Source: Anaerolineaceae bacterium (lineage in GTDB: Bacteria > Chloroflexota > Anaerolineae > Aggregatilineales > Phototrophicaceae). Taken from it: 64,000 nt of DNA. The stretch spans positions 38,480 to 102,479 of the forward strand of contig JAPPOB010000007.1 in NCBI GenBank assembly GCA_028818375.1. Reading direction: 5' to 3'. Position 1 is the first letter of the stretch. Each line of letters starts with the position of its first letter. The notes below the pieces were generated by a model, which saw only the letters and a list, made by a program, of their open reading frames with translations, did no database searches and had not been told where the DNA came from. Of the stretch, positions 38,342 to 63,777 are shown one piece after another. Made by a program: the position numbers and the translations under genes.

Positions 38342-38893
38342 TCAGGACGTTTCGGAGAAGATGTCGCTGACGGGGACGCGGAACCCCGGCAGCACCTCGC
38401 CGCCTTCGATGAGGTCGTCGCCGCGCAGGGTACGTGGCGGACCGTCGGCGACGTGAAGCTCGAGCGTACCCGTCCGCGGGTAGAGGAGCCAGACCATTGA
38501 CGTGCCATGCTGCAGGTAGCGTGCCGCTTTCACTTCCAGTTCGCTGCGGGTGTTGCTGCGGCTGTGCACCTCCACCGCCAGCAGGGGGGCTTCGGTCGGA
38601 ACGCCAGGGTCAGCACCTGTCCGCTGGACGGCGACATCCGGCTGACAGTACCAGCCGTCGAGGTTGTGCAGGGCTTCGGTACCCACGTCGTAGCCGGGCA
38701 AGGCACCGGCATCCAGCCACGCCGCCAGCAACACGGCGACGCGCGCCTGCTTCCTGGAGTGCAACCAGCTCGGCGCCATCTCGACGATTTCCCCCCTGGA
38801 GTTGAATGTGAACTTCTTGCCGGGGTACTGCCTGACCAACTCGAAATACCGCTCCAGGGTCAGTTCGGCCGGGTTGCGAACGGTGACAGCCAT
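38342..38893 (-). CDS. Uma2-family (DUF820) endonuclease-like protein, copy 1
   Basis: 183 aa. PD-(D/E)XK-fold protein of a family greatly expanded in Cyanobacteria and Chloroflexota. Putative catalytic residues: P85-D86 (CQPDVAV), E108 in LLAVEVHS and K122 in EVKAARYL. Residues 1-36 and the last 40 or so are identical to copy 2 at 39020, and so is the upstream DNA with TATACT (38926-38921); the middle differs strongly. Biological role of the family is unsettled. AAGGGAG precedes the start. Confidence 0.88.
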   Translation of the reverse strand: MAVTVRNPAELTLERYFELVRQYPGKKFTFNSRGEIVEMAPSWLHSRKQARVAVLLAAWLDAGALPGYDVGTEALHNLDGWYCQPDVAVQRTGADPGVPTEAPLLAVEVHSRSNTRSELEVKAARYLQHGTSMVWLLYPRTGTLELHVADGPPRTLRGDDLIEGGEVLPGFRVPVSDIFSETS

Positions 38894-49085: not shown

Positions 49086-49362
49086 GAGTGTCCTTCCCCA
49101 CGTTATGTGACAGTTCATGCGTTCACAAGCATACGTTGAGTCATCAAAGTCTGCCAGCGCTACGCTACCCCGAATCCGGCGCAGTCATCAGGCTTTCGCC
49201 GACTCCCCGGCCTGGTATTCGCAGGGCGCGCGGCCCCGTCGCCAATCCGGCCGCACATTATAGCGTGTCCTGATGGTGACGCAAACTGACCTGTTGTGAA
49301 TGCCGCCTGGTCCCGTCGCCCCGCTTCATCCAGAAAACGCGTCCGGGCCCTGCCGGCATTGT

Positions 49363-49404: not shown

Positions 49405-49418
49405 CGAAATCGTTTTCG
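49405..49418. promoter_or_regulatory. LacI-family operator
   Basis: CGAAATCGTTTTCG fits the LacI/GalR family consensus CGAAAnCGnTTTCG, with a central CG. It lies about 7-20 bp after the predicted transcription start and just before the GTG start, an ideal place for autorepression by the product of the next gene. Confidence 0.65.
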
Positions 49419-49428
49419 GAAGTGCCTT

Positions 49429-50424
49429 GTGCCTACCTCACTCACGGACATAGCGCGGCGGCTGGAACTCTCCCCTTCCACCGTCTCCAAGGCCCTCAAC
49501 GGCTATCGCGACGTTTCCAGCGACACGCGTGAAATGGTGCTGCGCGCCGCTCTTGAACTCGATTACCAGCCCAGCAGCGCCGCGCGCGACCTGCGTCGCG
49601 GCCGCACCGACCGCATCGGCCTCTTCCTTAACACAACCCTCGAATACGTCGTCGATTACCTTTCCGGCATCATCCCCGGCGCCGTTCGCTGCTCGCAGGA
49701 ATGCGGCAAACGACTGCTCATCTACACCCTGACCGACAACGACCCCGGCCAGTTGCTGCAGGTCTGCCGCGCCGGTGAAATTGACGGCGTCATCCTTTTC
49801 TCCACCCACTACGACAGCCACACCATCGAGGCCCTGCTGGAAGACGATTTCCCCTTCGTCGTCATGGGCCGTTACATCCCCGATGAACGCGTCTCCTGCG
49901 TCGTGCCCGACTATTACGACGGCACGCGCCAAATCATGGACCATTTGCTGGCTGTGGGGCATCGACGCATCGCCTTCATGACCCGCCCCGAACTGACCAC
50001 CGCCAACGAAGCCCGCCTGCAGGGCTATCTCGACGCCCTGGCCGCGGCAGAAATCGCGAGGGACGATCGACTCATCGTCGAAACGCGCCTCGAACCCGAC
50101 AGCGGCGTCGCCCCCACCCGTCAGTTGCTGGCCCTGACGCCGCATCCCACGGCCATCGTTGCCGCCCACGATCTGGTGGCCGTGGACGTTATCAACACAT
50201 TGCAGGCGGCCGGTCTGTGCGTCCCGCAGGATGTGGCCGTCACCGGTTTCGACGGCCTGCGCGCCGGTTTCCGCACCCTGCCGCACATCAGCACCGTGCA
50301 ACAACCCCTGGAGCGCATCGGCGAACGCGTCGTAGAACTGGTCAACCGTCGATTGAACGAGCCCGCCGCCCCGGCCGTGCAGGAGACCCTGCCGGTGCAA
50401 CTGGTGTTGCGTGGTTCCGCCTGA
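49429..50424 (+). CDS. LacI-family transcriptional regulator
   Basis: 331 aa from GTG 49429. The N-terminal helix-turn-helix SLTDIARRLELSPSTVSKAL (residues 4-23) and hinge helix region SSAARDLRRGRTDRIGLFL are typical; the rest is a periplasmic-binding-protein-like effector domain (GEIDGVILFSTHYDSHTIEALL; VAVTGFDGLRAGFRTLPHIS). Expected to repress in the absence of an imported sugar-like ligand. It is the first gene of the same-strand run that continues through the SnoaL and ABC genes to 62.2 kb, so it is the likely local regulator of that cluster. The next gene starts 24 bp downstream. Confidence 0.94.
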   Translation: MPTSLTDIARRLELSPSTVSKALNGYRDVSSDTREMVLRAALELDYQPSSAARDLRRGRTDRIGLFLNTTLEYVVDYLSGIIPGAVRCSQECGKRLLIYTLTDNDPGQLLQVCRAGEIDGVILFSTHYDSHTIEALLEDDFPFVVMGRYIPDERVSCVVPDYYDGTRQIMDHLLAVGHRRIAFMTRPELTTANEARLQGYLDALAAAEIARDDRLIVETRLEPDSGVAPTRQLLALTPHPTAIVAAHDLVAVDVINTLQAAGLCVPQDVAVTGFDGLRAGFRTLPHISTVQQPLERIGERVVELVNRRLNEPAAPAVQETLPVQLVLRGSA

Positions 50425-50447
50425 GTATGCCGCAGCAAGGAGGCCCC

Positions 50448-51539
50448 ATGAGCGAGAGAGAAGAGACGACGGACGCGCAGGACACCGGCATCACCCTGCA
50501 GGACAAGGTCGACATCCAGAATCTGCGCGACGCCAACGGTCTCCAGCGTCAGGGGATGAAGGGCTTCAACCCCCGCTATGAGGATTTCGTGGACTACATC
50601 ATCGGCATCACCCACGAAATCTGGGAAGAAAAGGCCATCGGCAAGCTTTACGACTACTACGCCAACACCATCCGCCTGCACACTTCGGATGGCGCCAGCT
50701 ATGGCCGTGAGGCGGTCTTCGCAGCGACCCTCGGCACCCTCGCCGCCTACCCCGACCGCCGTCTCTATGGCGACGAGGTCATCTGGGATGGCGACGATGA
50801 ACAGGGCTACTACTCCTCGCACCGCCTGGTGCATACGGGCACCAACCGCGGCTGGTCGCTCTACGGCCCGCCGACCAACAGGCGCGTGCGCTACTACGCC
50901 ATCGCCGACTGCTTCTGCCGCCGCAACCGGGTCGTTGAGGAGTGGCTGGTGCGCGACGAGCTGACCCTGGTGCATCAACTGGGCCTGGACCCGGTGAAGA
51001 CGGCGCGCGCCATGGCCTGCGCCGAACCCCCGCAACAGCATGCCGCCGATATCGAGCGCGGCACCGGCCAGCTGCCGCCGCCCGCCCTGCCGGAGCCGCA
51101 AGGCCCCCTCGACCCCGCCGACTTCGCCCGCCGCGCCATGCACGAGATCTGGAACTGGCGCTTGCTCAACAAGGTGCGCGAGTACCATGCGGAGACCCTG
51201 CGGGCCGAAGGGCCTTCGCTGCGGCGCATCCACGGACACAACGAGTACCAGGGCTTCGCGCTGGCCCTGCTGGCGCCCTTCCCGGACCTGGCCTTCACGA
51301 TCGAGCGCAGCACCTGCTGCGGTGACGGGGAGAAGGGCTGGCGGGTGGCGCTGCGCTGGCGCATGCAGGGCACGCACACCGGCTACGGCAACTACGGCGA
51401 GCCCGGCGGTCAACGCATCAACATTCTGGGCATCTCGCACATGCTGATTCAGGAAGGGCGCATTCAGCAGGAATGGATGCTTTTCGACGAATTCGCGCTG
51501 CTCAGACAAATCCACCGCCCTCAGGATTCAGGGAGTTAG
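50448..51539 (+). CDS. SnoaL-like (NTF2-fold) protein 1, two tandem domains
   Basis: 363 aa from ATG 50448, preceded by AAGGAGG. Two cone-like domains: about 45-185 (DFVDYIIGITHEIWEEKAIG, GREAVFAATLGTLAAYPD, RVVEEWLVRDELTLVHQLG) and about 218-355 (FARRAMHEIWNWRLLNKVRE, YQGFALALLAPFPDLAFTIE, GRIQQEWMLFDEFALL). The pattern of helix, pocket loop, AxFPD and long strands is that of SnoaL-like polyketide-cyclase/ester-cyclase proteins. It lacks the WYGP motif of the other four. Position directly after the regulator suggests an early pathway step or a ligand-modifying role; reaction unknown. Confidence 0.82.
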   Translation: MSEREETTDAQDTGITLQDKVDIQNLRDANGLQRQGMKGFNPRYEDFVDYIIGITHEIWEEKAIGKLYDYYANTIRLHTSDGASYGREAVFAATLGTLAAYPDRRLYGDEVIWDGDDEQGYYSSHRLVHTGTNRGWSLYGPPTNRRVRYYAIADCFCRRNRVVEEWLVRDELTLVHQLGLDPVKTARAMACAEPPQQHAADIERGTGQLPPPALPEPQGPLDPADFARRAMHEIWNWRLLNKVREYHAETLRAEGPSLRRIHGHNEYQGFALALLAPFPDLAFTIERSTCCGDGEKGWRVALRWRMQGTHTGYGNYGEPGGQRINILGISHMLIQEGRIQQEWMLFDEFALLRQIHRPQDSGS

Positions 51540-51592
51540 CGGAGTGACAGGCTCCGTTTTGACCCATTTTTCGGTTAGCGACAGGAGAAGAC

Positions 51593-52900
51593 ATGTACCG
51601 TCAGAAGTTTTACGTCCTTGCACTGCTGGCCCTGTGTATGGGCCTCGTCGCGATGCCCGGCGCCGTCGCGCAGGAAGCCGGCGCATGCAACGTTGAAGCG
51701 CCGATGGAAGCCGTTGAGCTCAACGCGCTCGGCTGGAGCTTCCCCATCCTTGATTTCTACTACAGCGAAATGGAGGCCTGCGACGCGGTCGAGAACATCG
51801 ACATCAACGTCAACCAGCTGTCCGGCGAGGACGTGCAGGAGCAGGTCAACCTGGCGCTCTCGGCCGGCGGCGATTCGCCCTACGACATCCTCAGCGGCGC
51901 CAATGGACAGGTGGCCGACTGGGGCGGCAAGGGCTGGTTGATGCCGCTCAACGACCTCATTGACAAGTACCGCGACGAATACGACCTCGACGACATTTCG
52001 GCCTCGAACTGGGACGTCGGCGCCATCGACGGCAACATCTACGGCATTCCCGTCATCGCCAACACCCTGCATCTCTTCTATCGCAGTGACGTGCTGGCCG
52101 GGATGGGCATGATGCCGCCCGAGACCTACGCCGACGTCATCGCGCTCTGCGATGCCATTGGCCTCGACAACATGGACTGGGACGCGCCCTTTGGCATGGA
52201 CCTTTCCCGCCCCCGCGGCTGGGAGCTGGAATTCTTCATGGTGCTGGGCGGCCTCGGCGGCAGCTACCTTGATGAAGGCGCCATGCCGGCCTTCAACGGG
52301 CCGGAGGGCGTACAGGCCGTCGAGATCATGCTCGACTTTTTCAACAGCTGCCTCGGCGAAGCGGCCTCCTCCATGAGCAACAACAACATGGAGACCGGCA
52401 TGCATCAGGGCACGCTGCCGGCCGTCAAGCTTTGGGCCAGCCGCGCCGCCGGCATGAGCGACCCGGACAACACCGAGCTCAGCGAGGTCATCGATTTCGC
52501 GCCCGCGCCGCGCGTCGTTGAGGGCGGCCCGCGCGCCGGCTCCGCCTGGCTGGACTTCTTCTTCATCCCGGCCAACACCACCAACGACCCGGACCTCATT
52601 TTCCGCGTCATCATGGAAGCCGTCGACGCCGCCTCGCAGCAGCAGGCCGCGGTATTCGGCATCCCCACACGCGGCTCGGCGGCTGATTTCGGCGGCAAGT
52701 ATCTGCCGGCCGCCAGCGGCACCGTGGCTGACAGCGTCGGGAACTACTCCAAGCACCCGGCCAACGACATCGCCATCGACAAGCTGAGCGAGTTCCTGCC
52801 CCTCACCGCCACCGGCGAGCTGAGCCCGCAGGAGGCGCTTGACGCCGCTGCCGACGCCTACATGGAGGAAGCGACCGCCCAGGGCTACATCGGGGGCTAG
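51593..52900 (+). CDS. Extracellular solute-binding protein (family 1), cassette 1
   Basis: 435 aa with a Sec signal peptide (FYVLALLALCMGLVAMPGAVA-QE) and no lipobox. Mature part typical of CUT1 sugar-binding proteins: LNALGWSFPILDFYYSE, GDSPYDILSG, GWLMPLNDLIDKY near 115, IYGIPVIANTLHLFYRSD near 148. It shares long stretches with the binding protein at 55969 (GW.FPILDFY.SE; GWLMPLNDLID.Y), so the two arose by duplication. AGGAG precedes the start. First gene of a binding protein-permease-permease cassette. Confidence 0.93.
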   Translation: MYRQKFYVLALLALCMGLVAMPGAVAQEAGACNVEAPMEAVELNALGWSFPILDFYYSEMEACDAVENIDINVNQLSGEDVQEQVNLALSAGGDSPYDILSGANGQVADWGGKGWLMPLNDLIDKYRDEYDLDDISASNWDVGAIDGNIYGIPVIANTLHLFYRSDVLAGMGMMPPETYADVIALCDAIGLDNMDWDAPFGMDLSRPRGWELEFFMVLGGLGGSYLDEGAMPAFNGPEGVQAVEIMLDFFNSCLGEAASSMSNNNMETGMHQGTLPAVKLWASRAAGMSDPDNTELSEVIDFAPAPRVVEGGPRAGSAWLDFFFIPANTTNDPDLIFRVIMEAVDAASQQQAAVFGIPTRGSAADFGGKYLPAASGTVADSVGNYSKHPANDIAIDKLSEFLPLTATGELSPQEALDAAADAYMEEATAQGYIGG

Positions 52901-52918
52901 ACGCTTCAGCGACCGGGC

Positions 52919-52942
52919 GGGGTGGCGGGCGTCCGCCGCCCC
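52919..52942 (+). other. Stem-loop after binding-protein gene 1
   Basis: GGGGTGGCGG (52919-52928), loop GCGT, CCGCCGCCCC (52933-52942). No T tract, so it probably stabilises the upstream mRNA or attenuates transcription into the permease genes. Confidence 0.55.
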
Positions 52943-52974
52943 GTCCTCACCCGGTTGGCCAGAGAAACGAGACC

Positions 52975-53838
52975 ATGGATCGCCGGATATTCCTGGGCTT
53001 CGCCGGCCCGAGCATCATCGTCATGCTCCTGCTGATGGTCCTGCCGCTGGCCATGGCCATCTGGCTGGGCATGCACTTCATGACTTTCGACAACGTGCTG
53101 GAGCCGCAGTGGGTCGGCCTGCGCAACTTCGTCGCCGCCCTCGGCGACGAGCGCTTCTGGCAGTCCTTCAACTTCACCGCGCTCTACATCGCCGTGGTGG
53201 TGCCGTCCTGGATCGTCATCGGCTTCATCGTGGCCCTCCTGCTGGATCAGGTGACGGGACTGGCGCGCGGCGTTTACCTCTCCATCTTTTTGCTGCCCTT
53301 CATCATCGTGCCCATCGTCGGCACCATCATGTTTCGCCAGTTGTTTGAACCCTCCGGCCTGCTGCGCTGGGTCTACCAGGAACTGCTCAACGAGCGTTTC
53401 CGCTACACCGAGCAAACCGTGAAGGCGCTCATCTTCCTCCACGGCATCTGGTACGTCACGCCCTTCACCCTCGTCGTCTACTTCGCCGGTCTGCAGACCC
53501 TGCCCCCGGATCTGATGGAGGCCTCCGGCATCGACGGCGCCAGTCGCCTGCAGAAGATTCGTCACATCGTCATCCCGCACGTGCGCTCGCTAACGCTCTT
53601 CATCCTGCTCTTCAGTATCATGGATTCCTACCGCGTCTTTGACAGCGTCTTCGTCCTGACCGGCCTCAATCCCCTCTACAAGGCCAACACCATCATGACC
53701 TATACCTACCAGACGGCGACCCAGTTTGAACGCCTGGGCAAGGCCAACGCCATGGCCGTGCTCACCGTCATCGGCATCATGGTCGTGCTCATTCCCAATC
53801 TCTACCTTTCCTGGAAAGAACAGATCGCGGAGCGTTAG
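52975..53838 (+). CDS. Sugar-type ABC transporter permease, MalF-like, cassette 1
   Basis: 287 aa, six TM helices beginning PSIIVMLLLMVLPLAMAIWL. EAA loop DLMEASGIDGASRLQKIRHI near residue 180. N-terminus and overall sequence parallel the permease at 58349 (GPSI.VMLLLMV.PL, PQWVGLRNF/PEWVGLENY), confirming cassette duplication. Four bases separate it from the next permease. Confidence 0.93.
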   Translation: MDRRIFLGFAGPSIIVMLLLMVLPLAMAIWLGMHFMTFDNVLEPQWVGLRNFVAALGDERFWQSFNFTALYIAVVVPSWIVIGFIVALLLDQVTGLARGVYLSIFLLPFIIVPIVGTIMFRQLFEPSGLLRWVYQELLNERFRYTEQTVKALIFLHGIWYVTPFTLVVYFAGLQTLPPDLMEASGIDGASRLQKIRHIVIPHVRSLTLFILLFSIMDSYRVFDSVFVLTGLNPLYKANTIMTYTYQTATQFERLGKANAMAVLTVIGIMVVLIPNLYLSWKEQIAER

Positions 53839-53841
53839 GCG

Positions 53842-54846
53842 ATGGACCCCGTAACCAGCCGTCCCGGACGCGTACTGATCCATGTGTTTCTGCTGGCCTT
53901 CGCCATCTACAGCGTGGTGCCTTTCCTGTGGACGGCCCTGCAGTCCATCAAGAAACTGCGGGACGCCAGTTCGCGCACGCCCAAATTCCTGTTCTCGCCC
54001 ACGCTCGAGAATTATGAGGATCTCTGGTTGCGCTCCACGCCGGAGAACCCGGAAGCCCTGGCTTTTTTCCTGTTGCTGGCCCTGTCGCTGCTGGTCTGCC
54101 TGCTGATCTTCGCGCAGCACATCCCCCTGCGCCGGAACCTAGTCTATGGCATCGCCCTGTCCGGCCTTGTCGGGCTGCTGTGGCTGATCCCGCAGGTGCT
54201 GGATATGGCCCGCTTCTACGACTTTTTCATCAACACCCTCATCGTCACCGTCGGCACCATCGTGGTGTCGATCAGCTTCGGTTGCCTGGCGGGCTATGCC
54301 CTCGCCCGTTACGCCGGCCTGCTGGGTGTGGTCGTGCTGATCGCGGCGCTGGCCTTCCGCGCCCTGCCGCGCCTGGCCTACGTCCTGCCCTATTACTGGA
54401 TCGGCAGCGCGCTCAATCTCATCGACTCCCACATCCTCGTCATCATCACCCTGGTCGCCGTCAACCAGCCCTTCACCATCTGGATGCTGCGCAGCTTCTT
54501 TATGGAGATTCCGAAGGACCTGGAGGAATCGGCGATGGTCGACGGCGCCGGCCGTCTCGTCGCCTTTGCGCGCGTCATCATCCCGGTCATGTGGCCGGGA
54601 ATCGTCGCCACCGCGCTCTTCACCCTGCTGCTGGCCTACAACGAGTTCCTGCTGGTGCGCATCCTGACCCAGACCAACTGGACCTTGCCGGTGGCCATCT
54701 CGCGCTTCACCGGCGGCGAAGATCCCCGCCACCTGACGCTGGCGGCCGCGGCGGCAGTATCGTCCACCATTCCCATCATCATCGTCATCCTCTTTTTCCA
54801 GAAGCAACTGGTCAAGGGACTGGCAGCCGGCGCTGTGAAGGGTTAG
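53842..54846 (+). CDS. Sugar-type ABC transporter permease, MalG-like with extra TM hairpin, cassette 1
   Basis: 334 aa, about 50 longer than the family norm. TM1 (IHVFLLAFAIYSVVPFLWTAL) is followed by the usual ENYEDLW, but before the next conserved element FYDFFINTLIVTVGT there is an extra pair of hydrophobic segments (LAFFLLLALSLLVCLLIFA; LVYGIALSGLVGLLWLI). The core then continues normally with the EAA loop DLEESAMVDGAGRLVAFARV near 228. The extra hairpin is shared, and enlarged, in the MalG-like partner of cassette 2. Confidence 0.92.
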   Translation: MDPVTSRPGRVLIHVFLLAFAIYSVVPFLWTALQSIKKLRDASSRTPKFLFSPTLENYEDLWLRSTPENPEALAFFLLLALSLLVCLLIFAQHIPLRRNLVYGIALSGLVGLLWLIPQVLDMARFYDFFINTLIVTVGTIVVSISFGCLAGYALARYAGLLGVVVLIAALAFRALPRLAYVLPYYWIGSALNLIDSHILVIITLVAVNQPFTIWMLRSFFMEIPKDLEESAMVDGAGRLVAFARVIIPVMWPGIVATALFTLLLAYNEFLLVRILTQTNWTLPVAISRFTGGEDPRHLTLAAAAAVSSTIPIIIVILFFQKQLVKGLAAGAVKG

Positions 54847-54853
54847 GGAATAC

Positions 54854-55852
54854 ATGGAAGATCGTCTGGCGCAGGCCAAACAGATGGTGTGGGACTTCGC
54901 GCAAGCCCGCGAACAGGGTCCCGCCGCGCGTCGCGATCTGGCCCGCTTCCTCGGGCCGGACCTGGAGTGGCACGGCATCCAGCCCCTGCGTTTGCTGGCA
55001 GGCCGCGACGCCTTTCTCGAACGCTTTCTGCAGCCCCTCTACTGCGCCTTCCCGGACTGGCAGCGCCGACCCTGCCTCTTCCTCGGCGGCCATTTCGAGG
55101 GCGAGGTCTGGGTCGCCGCCATGGGCGACGCCATCGGCAGCTTCGTCAACGAATGGCGCCTGACGCCGGACCTCGTCATCGCGCCGACGGGCTTCAGCCT
55201 GCGCACGCGCTACGGCGAGTTCTGCCGCGTGGAGGCCGGACGCATCGTCGAAATTCGTTACCTGATGGACCTGCCCGCCCTGCTGCTGCAGGCCGGCATC
55301 GATCTCATTCCGCCTGGCGCCGCCCACGAAGTCTGGCCGCCCGGCCCGGCCACCGGCGACGGTCTCGACCATGCCGGTCGCGATCCCGCCGAGTCGGCCA
55401 GGACCCTGGCGCTGGTCGAGGCGATGATCTTCGGCGGCCTCAACAAGTACGACGGCCAGGACCCCGACAGCCAGGACCTGGTGGAATACTGGCATCCGCA
55501 GATGACCTGGCACGGGCCGCGCGGCACGGGCTCCTCGCTGGATCTCGACGAATTCCGTCACCTCGCCCAGGCGCCCTTCCTGCGCATGACGCCCGACCGC
55601 AAAGGCGTCGGCCATCGCGCGCGCATCGCGGAGGGCCATTTCGCCGCCTCCACCGGCTGGCCCGCCTCGGTCGGCACCATGACCGGCGACTTCCTCGACT
55701 GGCCCGCCAGCGGCCGCGAAATGCGCCTCAACGTCATGGACTTCTGGCGCCGCGAGGGCGACATGCTACGCGAGGACTGGGTACTCATCGACATGATCGA
55801 CGCCGCCGCCCAGGCCGGCGTCGACGTCTGGCGGAAGGCCGGCCTGCGATGA
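54854..55852 (+). CDS. SnoaL-like (NTF2-fold) protein 2, two tandem domains
   Basis: 332 aa. Domain 1 covers about 1-150 (LAGRDAFLERFLQPLYCAFPD, RYGEFCRVEAGRIVEIRYLM). A linker with W161-P-P-G-P..GDGL and DPAESARTLALVEAM is shared with proteins 3 and 5. Domain 2 begins near 185 and holds the signature W219-H-G-P-R-G-T-G, then RLNVMDFWRREGDMLREDWV and LIDMIDAAAQAG. No signal peptide: cytoplasmic. Sits 7 bp after the permease, so it belongs to the cassette 1 operon. Possible activities of this fold include cyclase, isomerase, dehydratase and epoxide-hydrolase chemistry; none can be chosen from sequence. Confidence 0.82.
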   Translation: MEDRLAQAKQMVWDFAQAREQGPAARRDLARFLGPDLEWHGIQPLRLLAGRDAFLERFLQPLYCAFPDWQRRPCLFLGGHFEGEVWVAAMGDAIGSFVNEWRLTPDLVIAPTGFSLRTRYGEFCRVEAGRIVEIRYLMDLPALLLQAGIDLIPPGAAHEVWPPGPATGDGLDHAGRDPAESARTLALVEAMIFGGLNKYDGQDPDSQDLVEYWHPQMTWHGPRGTGSSLDLDEFRHLAQAPFLRMTPDRKGVGHRARIAEGHFAASTGWPASVGTMTGDFLDWPASGREMRLNVMDFWRREGDMLREDWVLIDMIDAAAQAGVDVWRKAGLR

Positions 55853-55968
55853 AATCCATGGAAAAAACTGCGCGCCTCACCACCCCTTTTCGCAAAATGG
55901 CGACCGTTCCCCTGCGGACGCGCCTGTTGTATCGTTTCATTTACCGTTGTGACAGAGAGGACTCTCAC

Positions 55969-57258
55969 ATGAAGAAGTTCGTTCTACTGCTCGCCGCACT
56001 GGGGCTGGCCCTGACCGGCCTCCCCGCCATGGCAGACATGCACGGCTGTGACGTCGCCGCGCCGGCGGAGCCGGTGCAGGTCAATTTCATCGGCTGGACC
56101 TTCCCAATTCTTGATTTCTACGCCAGCGAAATCGAAAGCTGCAACCAGGTCGAGAATCTGGACGTCAACGCCCAGGTGTTGCAGAGCGCCGACGCGCAGA
56201 ATGAAATGCGTCTGGCGGCGTCCAGCACCGGCGCCTCGCCCTACGACATCGTCCACGGCAGCAACGCCTTCATCGGCGAACTGGCCGCCCTGGGCTGGCT
56301 GATGCCGCTCAATGACCTGATCGACGAATACAGCGAGGCCTACGACCTCGGCGACATGTCGGACGCCATGTATGCCGCGGCCACCCTGAACGGCAATATC
56401 TACGGCATCCCGATCATCGTCAACACGTCGATCTTCATGTACAACGGTGATCTGCTGGAGGCCGCCGGCGTCGAGCCGCCGCAGACCTATGACGACGTCA
56501 TCGGCATCTGCAACTCGATGGCCCTTGAGGGCGCCGGCGCGGACATGGGCTTCGGCCTCGTCGTTTCCGCCGGCTGGGCCTGGCGCGTCGAGTACGTCAA
56601 CCTTTACGGTACCTGGGGCGGACATCTGCTGGACGAGAACCTGATGCCCGCCTTCAACAGCGAGACCGGCATAGCCGCGCTGGACAAGCTGCTGGAAATC
56701 GTGGATGCCTGCCTCGGCGAGGAAGGTGTCCTGCTCTCCACCGATGACGTGCAGGCCGGCCTCGCCAACGGCAGCATCGCCATGGCGCACATCTGGGCCA
56801 GCCGCGCCGCCATGATGGACGACGAGGAACTCTCCGACGTGGTCGGTGTGATCGAGTTCGCCCCGGCGCTGCACGCCACGGCGGATACGCCCAACCGCGG
56901 CGGCATCCCCTGGGCGGATTTCCTCGCCATCCCCGCCACCAGCGAGATCGACAAGGACCTCCTCTTCCAGATCATCATGGAAGCGGCTGACCTCGACTCG
57001 CAACTGGGCGCGGCGGAGTTCGGTCTGGTGCCGCGTAACGGCGCCTCGGCCAACGCGCCCCGTTATTCCGAAGCCTCCCTGACGACCATCGCCGAGGGCG
57101 GACCCGCCATCGATCATCCGGCCCAGCAGATCGCCAACTCCGCCCTGGGGCAATTCCTGCCCATGGCCGCCACCGGCGAAATGACCTCCGCGGAGGCCCT
57201 GCAGGCCGCGGCCGATCTCTACGTTGAAGAAGCTACGGCCCAGGGTTACATCGGGTAA
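55969..57258 (+). CDS. Extracellular solute-binding protein (family 1), cassette 2
   Basis: 429 aa from ATG 55969 with AGAGAGG upstream; a longer open frame running back into the preceding gene is spurious. Signal peptide MKKFVLLLAALGLALTGLPAMA without lipobox. Paralogue of the 51593 product (VNFIGWTFPILDFYASE, SPYDIVHGSNAF, GWLMPLNDLIDEYSEAYDL, NIYGIPIIVNTSIFMYNGD). A 116-bp leader separates it from SnoaL gene 2 and includes TTTTCGCAAAA, so cassette 2 may have its own promoter. Confidence 0.93.
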   Translation: MKKFVLLLAALGLALTGLPAMADMHGCDVAAPAEPVQVNFIGWTFPILDFYASEIESCNQVENLDVNAQVLQSADAQNEMRLAASSTGASPYDIVHGSNAFIGELAALGWLMPLNDLIDEYSEAYDLGDMSDAMYAAATLNGNIYGIPIIVNTSIFMYNGDLLEAAGVEPPQTYDDVIGICNSMALEGAGADMGFGLVVSAGWAWRVEYVNLYGTWGGHLLDENLMPAFNSETGIAALDKLLEIVDACLGEEGVLLSTDDVQAGLANGSIAMAHIWASRAAMMDDEELSDVVGVIEFAPALHATADTPNRGGIPWADFLAIPATSEIDKDLLFQIIMEAADLDSQLGAAEFGLVPRNGASANAPRYSEASLTTIAEGGPAIDHPAQQIANSALGQFLPMAATGEMTSAEALQAAADLYVEEATAQGYIG

Positions 57259-57274
57259 GCTTCTTCGCACACCG

Positions 57275-57306
57275 CTGACGGGCGGGCACGCCAGCCCGCC
57301 TGTCAG
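57275..57306 (+). other. Stem-loop after binding-protein gene 2
   Basis: CTGACGGGCGGGC (57275-57287), loop ACGCCA, GCCCGCCTGTCAG (57294-57306), 13-bp stem with one mismatch and no T tract. Matches in position the hairpins after the other two binding-protein genes. Confidence 0.6.
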
Positions 57307-57332
57307 TCACACGAACAGGGGCGGAAAAGCGC

Positions 57333-58310
57333 TTGCCCGCAGACGAAAACCAGGCCGCAAAAGAGACCGTCCGGTCCCTGTGGCAGGCCCTGCTACAAGA
57401 GGGGGAGGTCGCAGCGGCGCTGGACTCATACGCCGCGCCGGACCTGCGCCTGCAAGCCTTTCACCCCGTCAACGAAGTGCAGGGCGCCGACGCCCTTGCG
57501 CGCGACTTCGTTGCGCCCCTGCGTCAGGCCTTCCCCGACCTGCAGCGCCGCCCCTACATCAGCATCGCCGGGCGGCACCGGGGCTCGACCTGGGTCGCCA
57601 CCACCGGCGATTTCATCGGCAGTTTTGTGAAAGGGTGGCTCGGCATCCCGGCCTGTGGACACAGCGTCCACATGCGCTTCGGCGAATTTTGCCGTGTGGC
57701 GAAGGGCCGCGTCTGTGAGATCATGCTGCTGCTCGATCTGGTCAGTCTGTTGCGCCAGTGCGGCCGCCAGGCCCTGCCGCCGGAAAGCGGCGACACGCGC
57801 TGGATCCCCGGGCCGCGCGCCGGCGACGGCCTGCGCCAGTCCAGCTCCGACCCCGCCGACTCCGCGCGCAGCCTCGAGCTGGTGCTGGCCATGATCGACG
57901 CGCTCAACGACTACGACGGAAACAACCTGGTCAGCATGGGCATGACGCGCTTCTGGGCGGAGGACATGCGCTGGTACGGCCCGGCCGGCATCGGCTCGAC
58001 CGTGGCGCTGGCCGGCTTTGAAGAGCACCACCAGGTCCCCTTTCTGCGCGCCTTTCCGGACCGCGTTGGCGGCACGGAAGACACCGTCTGGATCGCCGAG
58101 GGTCCCTACGTGGCCTGCGCCGGTTTCCCGGTGCTGCACATGCGCCACCTGGGTCCGTATCTGGGCCATCCGGCCACCTGCCGTCCCGTCACCATGCGCG
58201 GCATCGACTGGTGGCGGCGTGACGGCGACCGCCTGGCCGAGAACTGGGTTTTCGTTGACCTGCCGCACTTCTTCGACCAACTTGACGTGGACCTGCGTCA
58301 GCGGCAATGA
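57333..58310 (+). CDS. SnoaL-like (NTF2-fold) protein 3, two tandem domains
   Basis: 325 aa from a TTG start. Domain 1 (about 8-145): HPVNEVQGADALARDFVAPL, RQAFPDLQRRPYI, then GDFIGSFVKGWLGIPACG and RFGEFCRVAKGRVCEIMLLL. Linker WIPGPRAGDGL with DPADSARSLELVLAMI. Domain 2 (about 180-325): signature W214-Y-G-P-A-G-I-G, HHQVPFLRAFPDRVGG, WWRRDGDRLAENWVFVDLPH. Its first domain is closest to that of protein 5 (HPVND.TG.DAIRREF). Encoded between the binding protein and the permeases of cassette 2, which is an odd place unless its function is tied to the transported compound. Confidence 0.83.
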   Translation: MPADENQAAKETVRSLWQALLQEGEVAAALDSYAAPDLRLQAFHPVNEVQGADALARDFVAPLRQAFPDLQRRPYISIAGRHRGSTWVATTGDFIGSFVKGWLGIPACGHSVHMRFGEFCRVAKGRVCEIMLLLDLVSLLRQCGRQALPPESGDTRWIPGPRAGDGLRQSSSDPADSARSLELVLAMIDALNDYDGNNLVSMGMTRFWAEDMRWYGPAGIGSTVALAGFEEHHQVPFLRAFPDRVGGTEDTVWIAEGPYVACAGFPVLHMRHLGPYLGHPATCRPVTMRGIDWWRRDGDRLAENWVFVDLPHFFDQLDVDLRQRQ

Positions 58311-58348
58311 ACAATCAGGAAAGGGACTATTGAGAGAAAGGAGGAACG

Positions 58349-59215
58349 ATGAGCCGCAAACACTTTTCCTTCTTCGTCGGCCCCAGCATCGTCATCATGC
58401 TGCTGCTGATGGTCGCGCCCCTGCTGGCGGCGGTCTGGCTGGGTTTCCAGCTCATCACCTTCCGCAACGTGACCAGCCCGGAATGGGTCGGGCTGGAAAA
58501 CTACCTTTTTATGCTGGGCGACCCGGGCTTCTGGAACGCCCTGCGCTTCACCCTGATTTACATCGTGGTGACCGTGCCGCTGCAAATGATCATCGGCCTG
58601 GGGGTGGCGCTGCTGCTGGACCAGGTGAGCACCTTCCGCGGCCTGTACATCGCCGCCACCCTGCTGCCCTTCATCGTCACGCCCATCGTCGGCACCCTGG
58701 TCTTCCGCCAGACCTTTGACCGCTACGGCATTTACCCCTTCATTCTTGAGCAGGTTTTCGGTCTCGACATAAACTTTTTCACGACCGACAACATCACCTG
58801 GCTGGTCATTTTCCACGCCATCTGGTACGTGACGCCCTTCGCCATCATCACGCTCTTCGCCGGCCTGCAGACCGTGCCGCAGGAGCCGCTGGAAGCCGCG
58901 AAGGTCGACGGGGCCGGCTGGCTGATGCGCCTGCGACACGTTGTGCTGCCGCATCTGCGCAGCCTCTTCCTTTTCATCGCGCTCATCTCGGTCATGGACG
59001 CCTACCGGGTCTTCGACAGCATCTTCGTGCTCACCAAGCAGAACCCGATCTACAGTCATATCGAGACCCTGATGTACTACAACTATCTGGTGGCCGTCGA
59101 ATTCCAGCGTCTCGGCCGCGCCAACGCCATGAGCGTGCTGACCGTGCTGGGAATCTTCATCATCCTCATCCCCTTCCTCATCATTTCCTACCGTGAGCAG
59201 GTGGAGGAACGCTGA
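58349..59215 (+). CDS. Sugar-type ABC transporter permease, MalF-like, cassette 2
   Basis: 288 aa with a strong AAGGAGG ribosome site. TM1 PSIVIMLLLMVAPLLAAVWL; EAA loop PLEAAKVDGAGWLMRLRHV near residue 182. Close parallel of the 52975 product. Its TGA and the next ATG overlap in TGATG (59213-59217). Confidence 0.93.
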   Translation: MSRKHFSFFVGPSIVIMLLLMVAPLLAAVWLGFQLITFRNVTSPEWVGLENYLFMLGDPGFWNALRFTLIYIVVTVPLQMIIGLGVALLLDQVSTFRGLYIAATLLPFIVTPIVGTLVFRQTFDRYGIYPFILEQVFGLDINFFTTDNITWLVIFHAIWYVTPFAIITLFAGLQTVPQEPLEAAKVDGAGWLMRLRHVVLPHLRSLFLFIALISVMDAYRVFDSIFVLTKQNPIYSHIETLMYYNYLVAVEFQRLGRANAMSVLTVLGIFIILIPFLIISYREQVEER

Positions 59216-60432
59216 TGCAACGCACCAACAGCGCCTGGGCCCGCGGCGCCATCCATCTTGTGCTCATTCTGTGGGTCATCTACAGCGTCGGCCCCTTCAT
59301 CTGGGCCATCATCGGTTCCACCCAACGCACGCGCGACGCCATCGCGCGCGAACCGCGTTTCGTGCCGCAGTTCATCCTCGACAGCCCCCTCGCCATCGTG
59401 CTGCTGATCGCCCTGCTGGTCCTCGGCGCCGTGTTCTGGATTCGCCGCAGCGCCAAAGTCGACGAGGAGACCGGCGTCGTGCCCAAACCCCTCGCCTGGC
59501 GCTGGCCGATTCTCGCCATCGTGGTGCTGGCGGGGGTTTTCCTGCTGGCCCATGGCGGTATCAACGATCGCAACATCTTCAGCGGCTCCATGAACAACTA
59601 CCAGGAGCTGTGGCTGAGCGAAGACCCGGCCGGCCTGACCGGCATCGCCTTCGGTCTGGTCGCCCTGCTGATCATCCTGATCGCCGTCGGCGTCTACGCC
59701 CGCAACCTGGAAAAGTGGCGCACGCAGATCTACTTCGCGATCGCGGCCATCGTCGTGGGCGTCATCCTGTGGTTGCCCTCAATCGTGCAGTTCGCGGAGT
59801 TCTACGACTACTTCCTCAACAGCGTGGTGGTCACCGTGGGCACGGTGCTAATCTCGATCAGCATCGGCTGCCTGGCGGGCTACGGCCTGGCGCGCTACTC
59901 GGGCATCGCCGGCGTCGTCATCCTCTTCGCCGCGCTGGCCTTCCGCGCCCTGCCGCGCATGGCCTTCATCCTGCCCTACTACTACTTCGCCCAACTCTCC
60001 GGCCTCTACGACACCTTCCCGCTGCTGATCGTCACCTTCGTCGCCATCAACCAGCCCTTCACCATCTGGATGCTGCGCAGCTTCTTCATGGAGATTCCGC
60101 GCGAACTGGAGGAGGCGGCCATGATCGACGGCTGCAACCGCCTCACCGGCTTCGTGCGCGTCATTGTGCCCATCGTCTGGCCGGGCATCATCACCACCGC
60201 GCTTTTCACCCTGCTGCTGGCCTATAACGAGTTCCTGCTGGCGCGCCTGCTGACGGCCACCAACTCCACCCTGCCGGTCGGCATCTCGCGCTACACCAGC
60301 GGCGAGGACGCGCGGCTGATCCCGCTCTCGAACGCCAGCGCGGTTTCCATCACGCTGCCGATCGTCTTCATCATCATTTTCTTCCAGCGCTATCTCATCA
60401 AGGGCCTCGCCGGTGGCGCGGTCAAGGGTTGA
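59215..60432 (+). CDS. Sugar-type ABC transporter permease, MalG-like with two extra TM hairpins, cassette 2
   Basis: 405 aa, over 100 longer than ordinary MalG-type permeases. After TM1 (VLILWVIYSVGPFIWAIIG) and REPRFVPQF there is a first extra hairpin (LAIVLLIALLVLGAVFWI; WPILAIVVLAGVFLLAHGG). Then comes the conserved NNYQELW and a second hairpin (IAFGLVALLIILIAVGVYA; IYFAIAAIVVGVILWLPSI) before the conserved FYDYFLNSVVVTVGT. Core helices and EAA loop ELEEAAMIDGCNRLTGFVRV follow normally. That predicts about ten TM helices. The second hairpin matches the one in the 53842 permease. Confidence 0.92.
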   Translation: MQRTNSAWARGAIHLVLILWVIYSVGPFIWAIIGSTQRTRDAIAREPRFVPQFILDSPLAIVLLIALLVLGAVFWIRRSAKVDEETGVVPKPLAWRWPILAIVVLAGVFLLAHGGINDRNIFSGSMNNYQELWLSEDPAGLTGIAFGLVALLIILIAVGVYARNLEKWRTQIYFAIAAIVVGVILWLPSIVQFAEFYDYFLNSVVVTVGTVLISISIGCLAGYGLARYSGIAGVVILFAALAFRALPRMAFILPYYYFAQLSGLYDTFPLLIVTFVAINQPFTIWMLRSFFMEIPRELEEAAMIDGCNRLTGFVRVIVPIVWPGIITTALFTLLLAYNEFLLARLLTATNSTLPVGISRYTSGEDARLIPLSNASAVSITLPIVFIIIFFQRYLIKGLAGGAVKG

Positions 60433-60441
60433 TCAATGACT

Positions 60442-60503
60442 CCCTCACCCCAAACCCTTTCCCGTTCTGCCGCGGGGCGGCGGGAAAAGGGCCGGGGTGA
60501 GGG
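60442..60503. repeat. GGGGTGAGGG-family inverted repeat
   Basis: CCCTCACCCC (60442-60451) pairs with GGGGTGAGGG (60494-60503), and inside it CCCTTTCCCG (60455-60464) pairs with CGGGAAAAGGG (60481-60491). The long hairpin lies between the permease and SnoaL gene 4 and may lower downstream expression. The same family occurs at 44137-44175. Confidence 0.75.
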
Positions 60504-60578
60504 CAAAAGACCGCTACCTGCTCTTCCAGGGGGCGGCCGTTGTTTTCGCATGCTGCACGCAGCGAAGGAGAATACGCC

Positions 60579-61088
60579 ATGGGCGAACAGGAGCGCCGCA
60601 ACCACCAGCTGGTCGAGGACATGTACGCCGCCATGAACGAGAACCGAACCGGCGTCATGGGAGATTACTGGTTCGACGACATGGTCTGGTACGGCCCGGC
60701 CGGCATCGGCGCCAAACGCGGCATCGATGAGTTCGACCTCGACTACCGCAGGGAATTCATCCACTCCTTCCCCGACAAGGTCGGTGCGGACGTCATCCGC
60801 CTCGCCCAGGGCGACTGGGTCGCCGGTACCGGCTACCAGACCGCCACCTTCGCCCGCGACTGGCTGGGCATCCCCGCCACAGGCCAGCAGATTAAAATGC
60901 GCTACATGGACTTCTGGCGCGTGGAGGAACGCGAGGGCGTGCGCAAGCTGGTCGAAAATCACGTGCTGATCGACATCCCTGGCGTGCTGGAGCAGGCCGG
61001 CTACGACGTCAACAAGGTGCTGCGCTTCGTCGGCTCGCAGCCGCCCGAATTCTTCGAGGAACAGGATAAAGAGAAGGCGGGTGACTGA
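60579..61088 (+). CDS. SnoaL-like (NTF2-fold) protein 4, single domain
   Basis: 169 aa from ATG 60579 with AAGGAG upstream. A single domain equivalent to the C-terminal domains of proteins 2, 3 and 5: W37-Y-G-P-A-G-I-G, EFIHSFPDKVGADVIRLAQG, RDWLGIPATGQQIKMRYMDF, and the end LVENHVLIDIPGVLEQAGYD. Its A/TG stop-start junction with gene 5 (both at 61088) implies coupled translation, so it may work with that two-domain protein. Confidence 0.84.
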   Translation: MGEQERRNHQLVEDMYAAMNENRTGVMGDYWFDDMVWYGPAGIGAKRGIDEFDLDYRREFIHSFPDKVGADVIRLAQGDWVAGTGYQTATFARDWLGIPATGQQIKMRYMDFWRVEEREGVRKLVENHVLIDIPGVLEQAGYDVNKVLRFVGSQPPEFFEEQDKEKAGD

Positions 61089-62242
61089 TGTCGCCCAACG
61101 CCATTCCTGACCGGCGCGCCGGAGACCCGTCAAAAACCTTCACGCCCGTTGACCAGAGCCGCAACCTCGCCAACAAGCGTCTGGTCCAGGCCGCCTGGGG
61201 GGACCTGACGCTGGCGCCAGTAGAGCAGCTTGACCGGGTCCTCGCCGCCGTCTACAGCGAGGACGCCGATTTCCACGGCACGCACCCGGTCAACGACCTG
61301 ACTGGCCCTGACGCCATCCGCCGCGAGTTTCTGGAGCCGCTGCGCCTGGCCCTGCCCGACGTCGAACGGCGCGAGGGTATCCTCGCCGGCGGCGTCTACC
61401 AGGGCCGCGAACTGGTCGCCTGTTACGGCCACTACCTCGGCACCTTCGCTGAAGACTGGTTCGATATCCCCGCCACACAGCAGATTCTGAATGTGCGCTT
61501 CTGCGAATGCCACGAAGTACTGGACGGGAAGATTCGCCGCAGTTACGTCTTCATCGACTATCTCGACGTCATGCGCCAGGCCGGTTACTGGCCGCTGGCC
61601 CCGTCGCTGGGCCGCGAAGGCGTCTGGCAACATCCCATGACCCGTGATGGCGTCCTGCTCACGCCGCAGGACGAGGCGACGTCGCGTCGCAGCCTCGACC
61701 TCGTCATGGCCATGCAGAGCGCCATGACCTGGTATGGCGGCGGCGCGCCCACGCGCGCCAACCTCGACGACATGCAGCAGCGGCGCTTCTGGCACCCCTG
61801 GATGCTGTGGTATGGCCCGGCCGGCATCGGCAGCACGCGCGGCCTCGCCAATTACGAGCAGTACCACCAAATCCCCTTCCTCGTCGCCTTCCCGGACCGC
61901 GGCAAGCTGCAGGGCGCGGGCTACAGCGGCCATTTCATCCGCATCGGCGACGGCGACTACGCGGTCACCGGCGGCTGGGGACATCTGCTGGCCACGCATA
62001 CGGGTGTTGACTGGCTCGGCCTGGCGCCGACCAACAGGGTCGTCAACATGCGCGTGATGGACTTCTACCGCTGCGATACGGACGAGGCCGGCGTGACCAC
62101 CCTGCGCGAAAACTGGGTGCCGATCGACATCCCGCAGTTGCTGCTGCAGATGAGCGTGGACGTCTTCGGCCGCATGCGCCACCAGTTCCGCCAGAGGGGC
62201 ACCATCAACGCCAGCGACTTTCTGCTGCGCGAGAGGCGCTGA
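61088..62242 (+). CDS. SnoaL-like (NTF2-fold) protein 5, two tandem domains
   Basis: 384 aa. Domain 1 (about 28-165): HPVNDLTGPDAIRREFLEPL, RLALPDVERREGILAGG, GTFAEDWFDIPATQQIL, SYVFIDYLDVMRQAGYWPL. Linker with VWQHPMTRDGVLLTPQDEA. Domain 2 (about 195-375): W241-Y-G-P-A-G-I-G, HQIPFLVAFPDRGKLQGAGY, VVNMRVMDFYRCDTDEAGV, then RENWVPIDIPQLLLQMSVD. The last gene of the long same-strand run. No signal peptide. Reaction unknown. Confidence 0.84.
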   Translation: MSPNAIPDRRAGDPSKTFTPVDQSRNLANKRLVQAAWGDLTLAPVEQLDRVLAAVYSEDADFHGTHPVNDLTGPDAIRREFLEPLRLALPDVERREGILAGGVYQGRELVACYGHYLGTFAEDWFDIPATQQILNVRFCECHEVLDGKIRRSYVFIDYLDVMRQAGYWPLAPSLGREGVWQHPMTRDGVLLTPQDEATSRRSLDLVMAMQSAMTWYGGGAPTRANLDDMQQRRFWHPWMLWYGPAGIGSTRGLANYEQYHQIPFLVAFPDRGKLQGAGYSGHFIRIGDGDYAVTGGWGHLLATHTGVDWLGLAPTNRVVNMRVMDFYRCDTDEAGVTTLRENWVPIDIPQLLLQMSVDVFGRMRHQFRQRGTINASDFLLRERR

Positions 62243-62670: not shown

Positions 62671-63777
62671 ATGAAGATCATCGACATTGAACTGCGACAG
62701 TACCGTTGGGAGCGGGGCACAGCCATCCGCAACGGCAAACACGTTTACACCCACAGCGGTCTGAATCTGATGTGCGTCCATACCGACGAAGGAGTCACGG
62801 GCATCGGCTGGGCGCACAAGCCGCAGACGATGGGCATGGCCAAAGTGACGCAGGGCTTGCTGGAATACTTCAAACCGCTGGTGATCGGCCAGGACCCCTT
62901 CGATTACCGCCGCATCTGGGAGACGCTGTGGGAACCCAAACTGGTCGGGCGTCGCGGCATCACGACGCGCTTCATCAGCGGGCTGGACATCGCGCTCTGG
63001 GACCTGATGGGGGTGGCGACGGGCAAGTCCGTCCACAAACTGCTGGGCGGCTTTCGCGATCGTGTGCCCGCCTACATCGCGGGCGGCTATTACGAAGAGG
63101 GCAAGGGACTCGACGGCCTGGCCGCGGAAATGGAAGAGAACCTGCGGCTTGGCGCCAAAGCCGTCAAGATGAAAATCGGCGGCGCCCCGATCCATGAAGA
63201 CGTCGAGCGCGTTCGCGTCGCGCGCGAGACTGTCGGCGACGGGATCAAACTGATGGTGGACGCCAATTGCGCCTACAGCGTGCCCGAGGCGATCAGCATC
63301 GCCCGCAAGATGGAGCCTTATGACATATTCTGGTTTGAAGAACCGATCGCGCCGGATGACTTCCGCGGGCACGGCAAACTGGCGCAGGCCACCACGATCC
63401 CGATCGCAACGGGCGAGAACGAATACACGCGCTACGGATTCCGTGACCTGATCGCCGCCGATGCCGCGGCGGTGTTCAACGCGGACGCGCAGGTTCTGGG
63501 CGGCATTACGGAATTCATGAACGTCGCCGCCCTGGCGGCCGCCCATGACCTGCAGATCGCGCCGCATGGCGACCAGGAGGTCCATCTGCATCTGGTCGGC
63601 GCCATCCCCAACGGTCTCATCGTCGAGTTCTATCGCGAGACCGTCGACATCAACCGCGCCAGGAGGTTCCAGGAAACATTGACTCTGGATGAAGACGGCT
63701 ACCTCACCGTTCCCGATCGCCCGGGACTGGGGGTCACGCCGGATTTCGAGTTCCTTGAGCGCTTCCGCATCAACTGA
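62671..63777 (+). CDS. Mandelate racemase/muconate lactonizing enzyme family protein (sugar-acid dehydratase-like)
   Basis: Enolase-superfamily enzyme, 368 aa. The catalytic set is complete: K166-x-K168 in VKMKIGG, metal ligands D197 (with N199), E223 in WFEEP and E249 in TGENEYTR, D272 in NADAQVLGG, and H299 in APHGDQE. The KxK plus His/Asp pair fits members that epimerise or dehydrate sugar acids such as galactonate, though the true substrate cannot be told. It is 428 bp beyond the last SnoaL gene with a short opposite-strand gene between, so it may be regulated separately. A link to the cluster is plausible but inferred. Confidence 0.92.
   Translation: MKIIDIELRQYRWERGTAIRNGKHVYTHSGLNLMCVHTDEGVTGIGWAHKPQTMGMAKVTQGLLEYFKPLVIGQDPFDYRRIWETLWEPKLVGRRGITTRFISGLDIALWDLMGVATGKSVHKLLGGFRDRVPAYIAGGYYEEGKGLDGLAAEMEENLRLGAKAVKMKIGGAPIHEDVERVRVARETVGDGIKLMVDANCAYSVPEAISIARKMEPYDIFWFEEPIAPDDFRGHGKLAQATTIPIATGENEYTRYGFRDLIAADAAAVFNADAQVLGGITEFMNVAALAAAHDLQIAPHGDQEVHLHLVGAIPNGLIVEFYRETVDINRARRFQETLTLDEDGYLTVPDRPGLGVTPDFEFLERFRIN

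Follow-up and report, generated by a model that had tools for sequence, protein, structure and literature searches.

The closest described counterparts of the locus studied here come from several systems: the SnoaL/NTF2-like polyketide cyclases (SnoaL2, IdmH and AclR; PF07366), with Asp121 as the catalytic acid/base aspartate of SnoaL; the polyether epoxide hydrolases Lsd19 and MonB, biosynthetic enzymes with tandem SnoaL-like domains in one chain; the CUT1 (maltose-type) ATP-binding cassette (ABC) importers, which use a shared MalK-type ATPase; HpsN, the sulfopropanediol 3-dehydrogenase; and the acid-sugar dehydratases and 3,6-anhydrogalactonate cycloisomerase of the enolase superfamily. Proteins resembling members of these systems occur together in the 3.04 Mb genome of an Anaerolineaceae bacterium of the Chloroflexota (assembly GCA_028818375.1), in and beside a gene cluster at 87.9–102.3 kb of contig C10 (JAPPOB010000007.1). 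The cluster lies within a stretch of 64,000 nucleotides (contig positions 38,480 to 102,479) that we analysed as a whole and call the window. We consider it probable, though far from certain, that the cluster, under LacI control, serves the uptake and catabolism of a polyhydroxylated, probably sugar-acid-like compound or a set of stereoisomers. Searches of the open-access literature found no published description of the gene set.

The cluster lies on the plus strand (49.4–63.8 kb of the window; Table 1) and consists of LacI, SnoaL-1, importer 1, SnoaL-2, importer 2, SnoaL-4, SnoaL-5 and an enolase-superfamily enzyme, with SnoaL-3 placed between the binding protein and the permeases of importer 2. 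Gene families were called with Pfam profiles and judged against curated cut-offs, which the LacI, SnoaL/SnoaL_2, SBP_bac_1 and BPD_transp_1 calls all exceed; together with the coordinates, these scores confirm the gene order, the single strand and the family identities given by the initial annotation of the stretch. Its statement that the core has no kinase, hydrolase or aldolase, read as a lack of other enzymes, is true of 49.4–62.2 kb alone: the enolase-family gene comes next and is followed, past the end of the window, by genes for a short-chain dehydrogenase/reductase (SDR), a histidinol-dehydrogenase-like enzyme (HDH), a MetE-like protein and a cupin, all of them frequent partners of the set. 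The cupin call in this genome rests on a motif read by eye and on relatives matching Cupin_2, two of the three below the Pfam cut-off. Directly after the enolase-family gene, positions 1857–2512 of L002 (window-equivalent about 63777–64432) hold homopolymer tracts and a block of N, which we take to be an assembly join or masking, and the distance to the SDR and HDH genes is therefore uncertain; the gene order across this region is backed by a contig of the same-genus genome G001. All seven SnoaL_2 matches in the genome (E up to 0.001) fall inside the cluster, and relatives have the gene set too; the cluster is thus not a chance grouping. The nearest relatives by SnoaL-1, at 92, 89 and 65% identity, are metagenome assemblies labelled Anaerolineaceae, Anaerolineae and Chloroflexi bacterium. 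The order is kept in G001 (L027), which has one importer only and all five SnoaL genes; this rules out a one-to-one number of SnoaL genes and importers.

All five SnoaL proteins score above the curated cut-off of PF07366. Two domains are present in SnoaL-1, -2, -3 and -5, the second domain of SnoaL-5 being seen by alignment, and SnoaL-4 has a single domain. AlphaFold2 (AF2) models were made for SnoaL-1 (predicted local distance difference test, pLDDT, 88; predicted template-modelling score, pTM, 0.86) and SnoaL-3 (pLDDT 92.8, pTM 0.92) only, and both, with Foldseek, show tandem domains of the NTF2-type alpha+beta cone fold. In the Foldseek searches, SnoaL-type cyclases match one domain at a time (target template-modelling score, TM, about 0.65–0.84), and the two-domain Lsd19 and MonB are at or near the top with the best E-values; their whole-chain TM is 0.3–0.4 with a root-mean-square deviation of about 14–18, so that a shared domain arrangement is not implied. 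No solved structure close to SnoaL-5 in sequence was found. Unlike the polyketide cyclases, the window proteins are mostly tandem two-domain chains in a transport and catabolic locus, with no polyketide genes seen in the stretch examined. SnoaL-1 forms a distinct subfamily. At E up to 0.001, 84 of 200 relatives contain a match to it, in many cases weak and confined to one domain; the long, strong matches among those listed are in the window's own family.

The case for catalysis comes from the conserved residues. Relatives of SnoaL-2, -3 and -5 carry two carboxylates per domain at equivalent positions (SnoaL-3 numbering): among 47 such proteins, E118 is kept in 44 and D135, D292 and D309 in all, and a further 18 relatives at greater distance, from Chloroflexota and Pseudomonadota, have E118 and D135 in 17 each and D292 and D309 in every one. 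E118 and D292 are candidates for the counterpart of Asp121 of SnoaL. In SnoaL-1 relatives, H310 is present in 37/37 and, over four phyla, in 31/31, with E342 in 37/37 and 28/31, respectively. These near-invariant carboxylates fit acid/base enzymes, and the initial suggestion that the SnoaL proteins act on the imported substrate gains from them. It seems unlikely that the proteins would instead be non-enzymatic binders or sensors holding the imported compound or its products. Some NTF2-fold proteins do nothing but bind ligands, five copies per locus are odd for a linear pathway, and L027 retains all five beside its single importer; against this stand the paired carboxylates, near-invariant in two phyla, the unbroken conservation of H310 in SnoaL-1, and the hydrolases and cyclases among the Foldseek neighbours.

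Our comparisons covered Chloroflexota genomes and plasmids, plus one pattern scan of genome contigs for close relatives. In a phylum sample of 400 genomes, SnoaL-1-type proteins (E at most 1e-20) occur in six and the HDH type (E at most 1e-120) in nine, all six falling within the nine; the hypergeometric probability of this overlap, uncorrected for phylogeny and on the footing that both searches appear to have used the same 400 genomes, is 1.5e-11, or 6.8e-10 with our own genome left out. In the five of these six that are not our own genome, one of the same class and four of other classes, SnoaL-1, HDH and SDR genes lie within one stretch of 15–20 kb, with MetE-like and cupin relatives in three of the stretches and permeases 49–52% identical to those of the window in one (L136). 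Cupin and MetE-like genes stand beside SnoaL-1 in seven relatives besides our own genome (L027, L028, L030, L031, L034, L038 and L046, the last with a SnoaL-1 relative at 41% identity), and five of the seven have HDH as well. The enolase-family protein belongs to MR_MLE (E down to 9e-57) and, unlike the named enzymes of the superfamily, reaches the cut-off of none of the 17 NCBIfam models listed. Another genus, g18, has copies of 78–86% identity in its SnoaL loci, and DHDPS-family and oligogalacturonate-lyase-like genes also occur there. In that genus (L035–L045, L055–L060), SnoaL-1 and SnoaL-5 genes are often without an importer, and several loci have genes for a BMP-type (PnrA-like) binding protein and for FAD amine-oxidase-type, Asp/Glu-racemase-type and dTDP-sugar isomerase-type proteins nearby. 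Five SnoaL-1 relatives and two HDH genes are packed into about 22 kb of contig C20 of G039 (92–114.5 kb; L046 and L047, the latter overlapping the former and excluded from counts).

SnoaL-1 relatives also occur in 53 plasmid records, and we counted genes in 18 annotated neighbourhoods (L143–L161) picked to cover genera of Pseudomonadota, Deinococcota and Bacillota, the last with one record. LacI is present in 17 (in one annotated merely as a transcriptional regulator and matched by tblastn), a sugar-type ABC importer in 15, HDH and cupin in 14 each (L151 adding an unannotated HDH match in two pieces), SDR and alpha/beta hydrolase in 13 each, and further SnoaL genes in 10; the three stretches with no ABC importer have genes of the major facilitator superfamily (MFS). 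An HpcH or RraA aldolase is found in 12, counting one gene annotated as demethylmenaquinone methyltransferase that we take to be RraA. The plasmid importers are only 20–50% identical to those of the window and thus belong to different branches of this importer type. A full set is found in Ruegeria conchae, whose plasmid locus L154 has ABC importer, HDH, SDR, LacI, cupin, MetE-like and RraA genes and four SnoaL genes. In Ensifer (L161), a 3-oxo-tetronate kinase and a class II aldolase occur without HDH or SDR; in L149, an unannotated locus outside the 18, tblastn finds SnoaL-1, SnoaL-3, the importer and LacI, and no HDH. Neither HDH nor a SnoaL gene in the same operon was seen at six plasmid control importers, one of which has an NTF2-family gene of single-domain size in a separate operon; LacI, cupin and an SDR-named gene appear once each. 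The partners that SnoaL-1 has more widely are LacI, HDH, SDR and cupin, both in further classes of the Chloroflexota and on plasmids from Deinococcota, Bacillota and Pseudomonadota.

Amidase or carbon–nitrogen hydrolase genes occur in nine of the 18 plasmid stretches and MetE-like genes in four, never in the same one; either kind may stand in for the other, or the two may signal different variants of the substrate. The main alternative to a sugar acid is that the locus breaks down a nitrogen-containing compound (an amide, a heterocycle or something nucleoside-derived) despite its sugar-type importer. Such a substrate would suit these nine loci, the Asp/Glu racemase and DAO-type oxidase genes flanking SnoaL-1 in g18, and the nucleoside hydrolase and PfkB genes adjoining the type-B loci. 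We nevertheless think it improbable: genes of this kind were not seen in the window locus or the same-genus loci (reading frames partly scanned; a DAO-type gene is present in L030), and the amidase and MetE-like genes, never together in the 18 plasmid stretches, may be optional side branches.

The HDH bears on a third possibility: breakdown of 2,3-dihydroxypropanesulfonate or a different sulfonate, in which HDH would act as HpsN. The closest solved structures to HDH are indeed HpsN enzymes (E 4e-123, vs 9e-80 for the best histidinol dehydrogenase), and HDH retains a lysine at the position of HpsN Lys353. In the published description, the HpsN motif GRY[AS]H contains the sulfonate-recognising His126, and the HisD motif of histidinol dehydrogenase at the same place is GSAPL (PMC11382572). 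HDH has neither: it reads GRYPM in our own genome and five relatives, and G[RK][YF]P[MLI] is found in 20 of 21 HDH-type reading frames compared, a subset of the HDHs, the remaining one being covered outside the motif region. In two further HDH paralogs the motif pattern searched for was not seen. The diagnostic histidine of HpsN is thus replaced, and HDH would probably be an HpsN-like enzyme acting on a different substrate; with a sugar-type importer as well, degradation of sulfopropanediol (DHPS) or another sulfonate is disfavoured and seems very unlikely.

Both importers have the CUT1 composition of an SBP_bac_1 binding protein and two different BPD_transp_1 permeases. They resemble known CUT1 systems also in having no local ATPase: no ABC ATPase matches were found from 57.1 to 193.6 kb of the contig, and the two OB_MalK matches in the genome, MalK-type ATPases, are both outside the locus. 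The importers probably share an ATPase encoded elsewhere in the genome, and these two may serve them. Unlike known CUT1 importers, they form a subfamily of their own, with binding proteins far from solved structures (best E 2e-13). The initial annotation saw two duplicated cassettes; their paralogy stands (binding proteins 45%, permeases 52% and 55% identical), their being a recent pair does not. In a tree of 80 binding proteins (identical ones and matches shorter than 180 residues left out; control rows long-branched and flagged by the program), the two fall in separate groups, well supported at 100/100 and made up of 20 and 9 rows, both spanning genera, so that the importers are not recent local duplicates and a recent tandem duplication of the cassette is ruled out.

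A search with binding protein 2 placed the subfamily at at least 94 places among the matches listed, at 42% identity or more, the next match having an E of 4e-24 and two short fragments lying lower. Two of these places are in the window and 20 had already been obtained via SnoaL-1 and are SnoaL-biased; of the other 72, 40 were sampled at mostly alternate ranks. SnoaL genes are present at 21 of the 40 and at none of 20 control importers, and the loci without them are 18 members of one clade (a single group in the tree, 98/95) plus L095; several contigs terminate inside loci, and absences are soft. The association between SnoaL genes and importers is real but clade-limited. L032 has SnoaL genes nearby, yet its binding protein groups with the clade that otherwise lacks them. 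In that sister clade (L066–L078, L086, L091, L102, L104 and L105), a sulfatase-family gene occurs in 14 of 18 loci and an alpha/beta-hydrolase-family gene in 10 of 18, hinting at a sulfated compound; each family call comes from a Pfam scan of a single member.

Regulation by the LacI protein is suggested by its putative operator. The site CGAAATCGTTTTCG, an exact match, is the only one in the window with at most one mismatch to the 14-mer CGAAAWCGWTTTCG, which is found exactly in 24/60 SnoaL loci, 0/18 loci of the clade without SnoaL genes (clade A) and 0/20 control importer loci, and with at most one mismatch in 30/60, 0/18 and 3/20, respectively. In these loci it lies upstream of LacI and, in several, immediately upstream of SnoaL-1. 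L031 and L038 have two copies, the first where the cupin and LacI genes diverge and the other immediately upstream of SnoaL-1, which suggests, for these two relatives only, LacI control of the HDH/MetE operon. A genome-wide operator regulon was rejected: the exact 12-base core occurs once in our own genome, and with at most one mismatch at 13 sites, vs three for a reversed-pattern control. That importers merely happen to stand beside unrelated SnoaL genes is scarcely credible, for while one importer clade is entirely without SnoaL genes (18/18), they are present at 21 of the 22 sampled importers outside it and at none of the controls, the operator is shared by a good part of the SnoaL loci, and the co-occurrence counts already refute a chance neighbourhood unless the sampling was badly biased.

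Uptake and catabolism of a sugar-acid-like compound, the explanation that we favour, would proceed with the two importers bringing in the compound and HDH and SDR oxidising its alcohol groups inside the cell. The SnoaL proteins would then perform acid/base chemistry (isomerisation, retro-aldol cleavage, lactone opening or hydration) on the carbonyl compounds so formed; breakdown would be finished by the enolase-superfamily enzyme or, in other hosts, by a pyruvate-type aldolase. The substrate class, the order of the steps and each reaction we infer; a sugar acid is the leading substrate class because of the LacI regulator, the sugar-type importer, the enolase-family enzyme, and the aldolase and tetronate enzymes in related loci, and the DHDPS-family and oligogalacturonate-lyase-like genes of g18 hint at it as well. 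Several observations weigh against this explanation. Enzyme partners (amidase, MetE-like, HpcH, RraA) vary among hosts, and one fixed pathway is therefore not certain; nitrogen-related neighbours elsewhere (amidase, Asp/Glu racemase, amine-oxidase type) misfit a plain sugar acid. HDH is found without SnoaL in L162–L165 and is not exclusive to the gene set, no HDH, SDR or cupin was seen within the stretches from Phaeobacter (L146) and Vibrio (L153), and the HDH, SDR, MetE-like and cupin genes of our own genome have no operator site nearby, counting sites with up to one mismatch in the 12-base core. The co-conservation of SnoaL genes and importers expected at the outset holds in the sampled loci as a whole, but a strict link is broken by the 18 clade loci and L095, by the 21 of 39 distinct SnoaL-1-selected stretches without a subfamily importer (18 have one), and by the three MFS plasmids.

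The initial view of one regulated uptake-and-conversion locus is nevertheless supported, and the finding is real and larger than first claimed. The catabolic gene set reaches at least four phyla, and the importers appear to be the way in which one lineage has solved transport for it. Going further, and with slightly more doubt than conviction, we suggest that the gene set encodes a catabolic pathway of these phyla with no description in the literature searched (Chloroflexota, Deinococcota, Bacillota and Pseudomonadota), in which a paired-carboxylate two-domain SnoaL set would do the core conversions, the compound would be oxidised by its own HDH type (G[RK][YF]P[MLI]) and SDR, and the transporter, ABC or MFS, would be exchangeable; that the SnoaL copy number matches the substrate's stereochemistry is speculation.

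Table 1. Features of the locus in window coordinates; "past end" marks approximate window-equivalent positions past the window end, computed from L002.
Feature	Position	Strand	Basis or remark
LacI-type operator CGAAATCGTTTTCG	49405..49418	+	10 bases upstream of LacI start
LacI-family regulator	49429..50424	+	Pfam LacI and Peripla_BP_3, above cut-off
SnoaL-1, two-domain, 363 amino acids, distinct subfamily	50448..51539	+	Pfam SnoaL 6e-31, two stretches; AF2 model
ABC binding protein 1	51593..52900	+	Pfam SBP_bac_1; binding-protein tree
ABC permease A1	52975..53838	+	Pfam BPD_transp_1
ABC permease B1	53842..54846	+	Pfam BPD_transp_1
SnoaL-2, two-domain	54854..55852	+	Pfam; 41% identity to SnoaL-3
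ABC binding protein 2	55969..57258	+	Pfam SBP_bac_1; binding-protein tree
SnoaL-3, two-domain, TTG start	57333..58310	+	Pfam; AF2 model
ABC permease A2	58349..59215	+	Pfam BPD_transp_1
ABC permease B2	59215..60432	+	Pfam BPD_transp_1
SnoaL-4, single-domain	60579..61088	+	Pfam
SnoaL-5, two-domain	61088..62242	+	Pfam for first domain; second aligns to SnoaL-4 and SnoaL-3
Enolase-superfamily (MR_MLE) acid-sugar dehydratase-like enzyme	62671..63777	+	Pfam; MR_MLE match
SDR	about 65578-66384, past end	-	L002
HDH	about 66330-67631, past end	-	L002
MetE-like protein	about 67765-68919, past end	-	L002
Cupin-motif protein	about 68916-69590, past end	-	L002; motif

Two further genes lie upstream of the cluster: an apparently unrelated carbamoyltransferase with both Pfam domains (45985–47727) and, on the minus strand (47805–49118), an open frame of 437 amino acids that matches nothing in Pfam, contains a glycine-rich stretch and may encode a secreted protein.

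Proteins named "ester cyclase" or "SnoaL-like" occur in bacteria with no evident polyketide role, and the locus links them to a defined, regulated gene set. The SnoaL enzyme family is best known from antibiotic making; here it stands in a context of apparent import and breakdown, with the same partnership in very different bacteria. Since cultured bacteria (Ruegeria, Deinococcus, Pantoea and Phaeobacter) carry the gene set on plasmids, the function of the SnoaL proteins there is accessible to testing, and solving it would name the compound taken up by these uncultured Chloroflexota.

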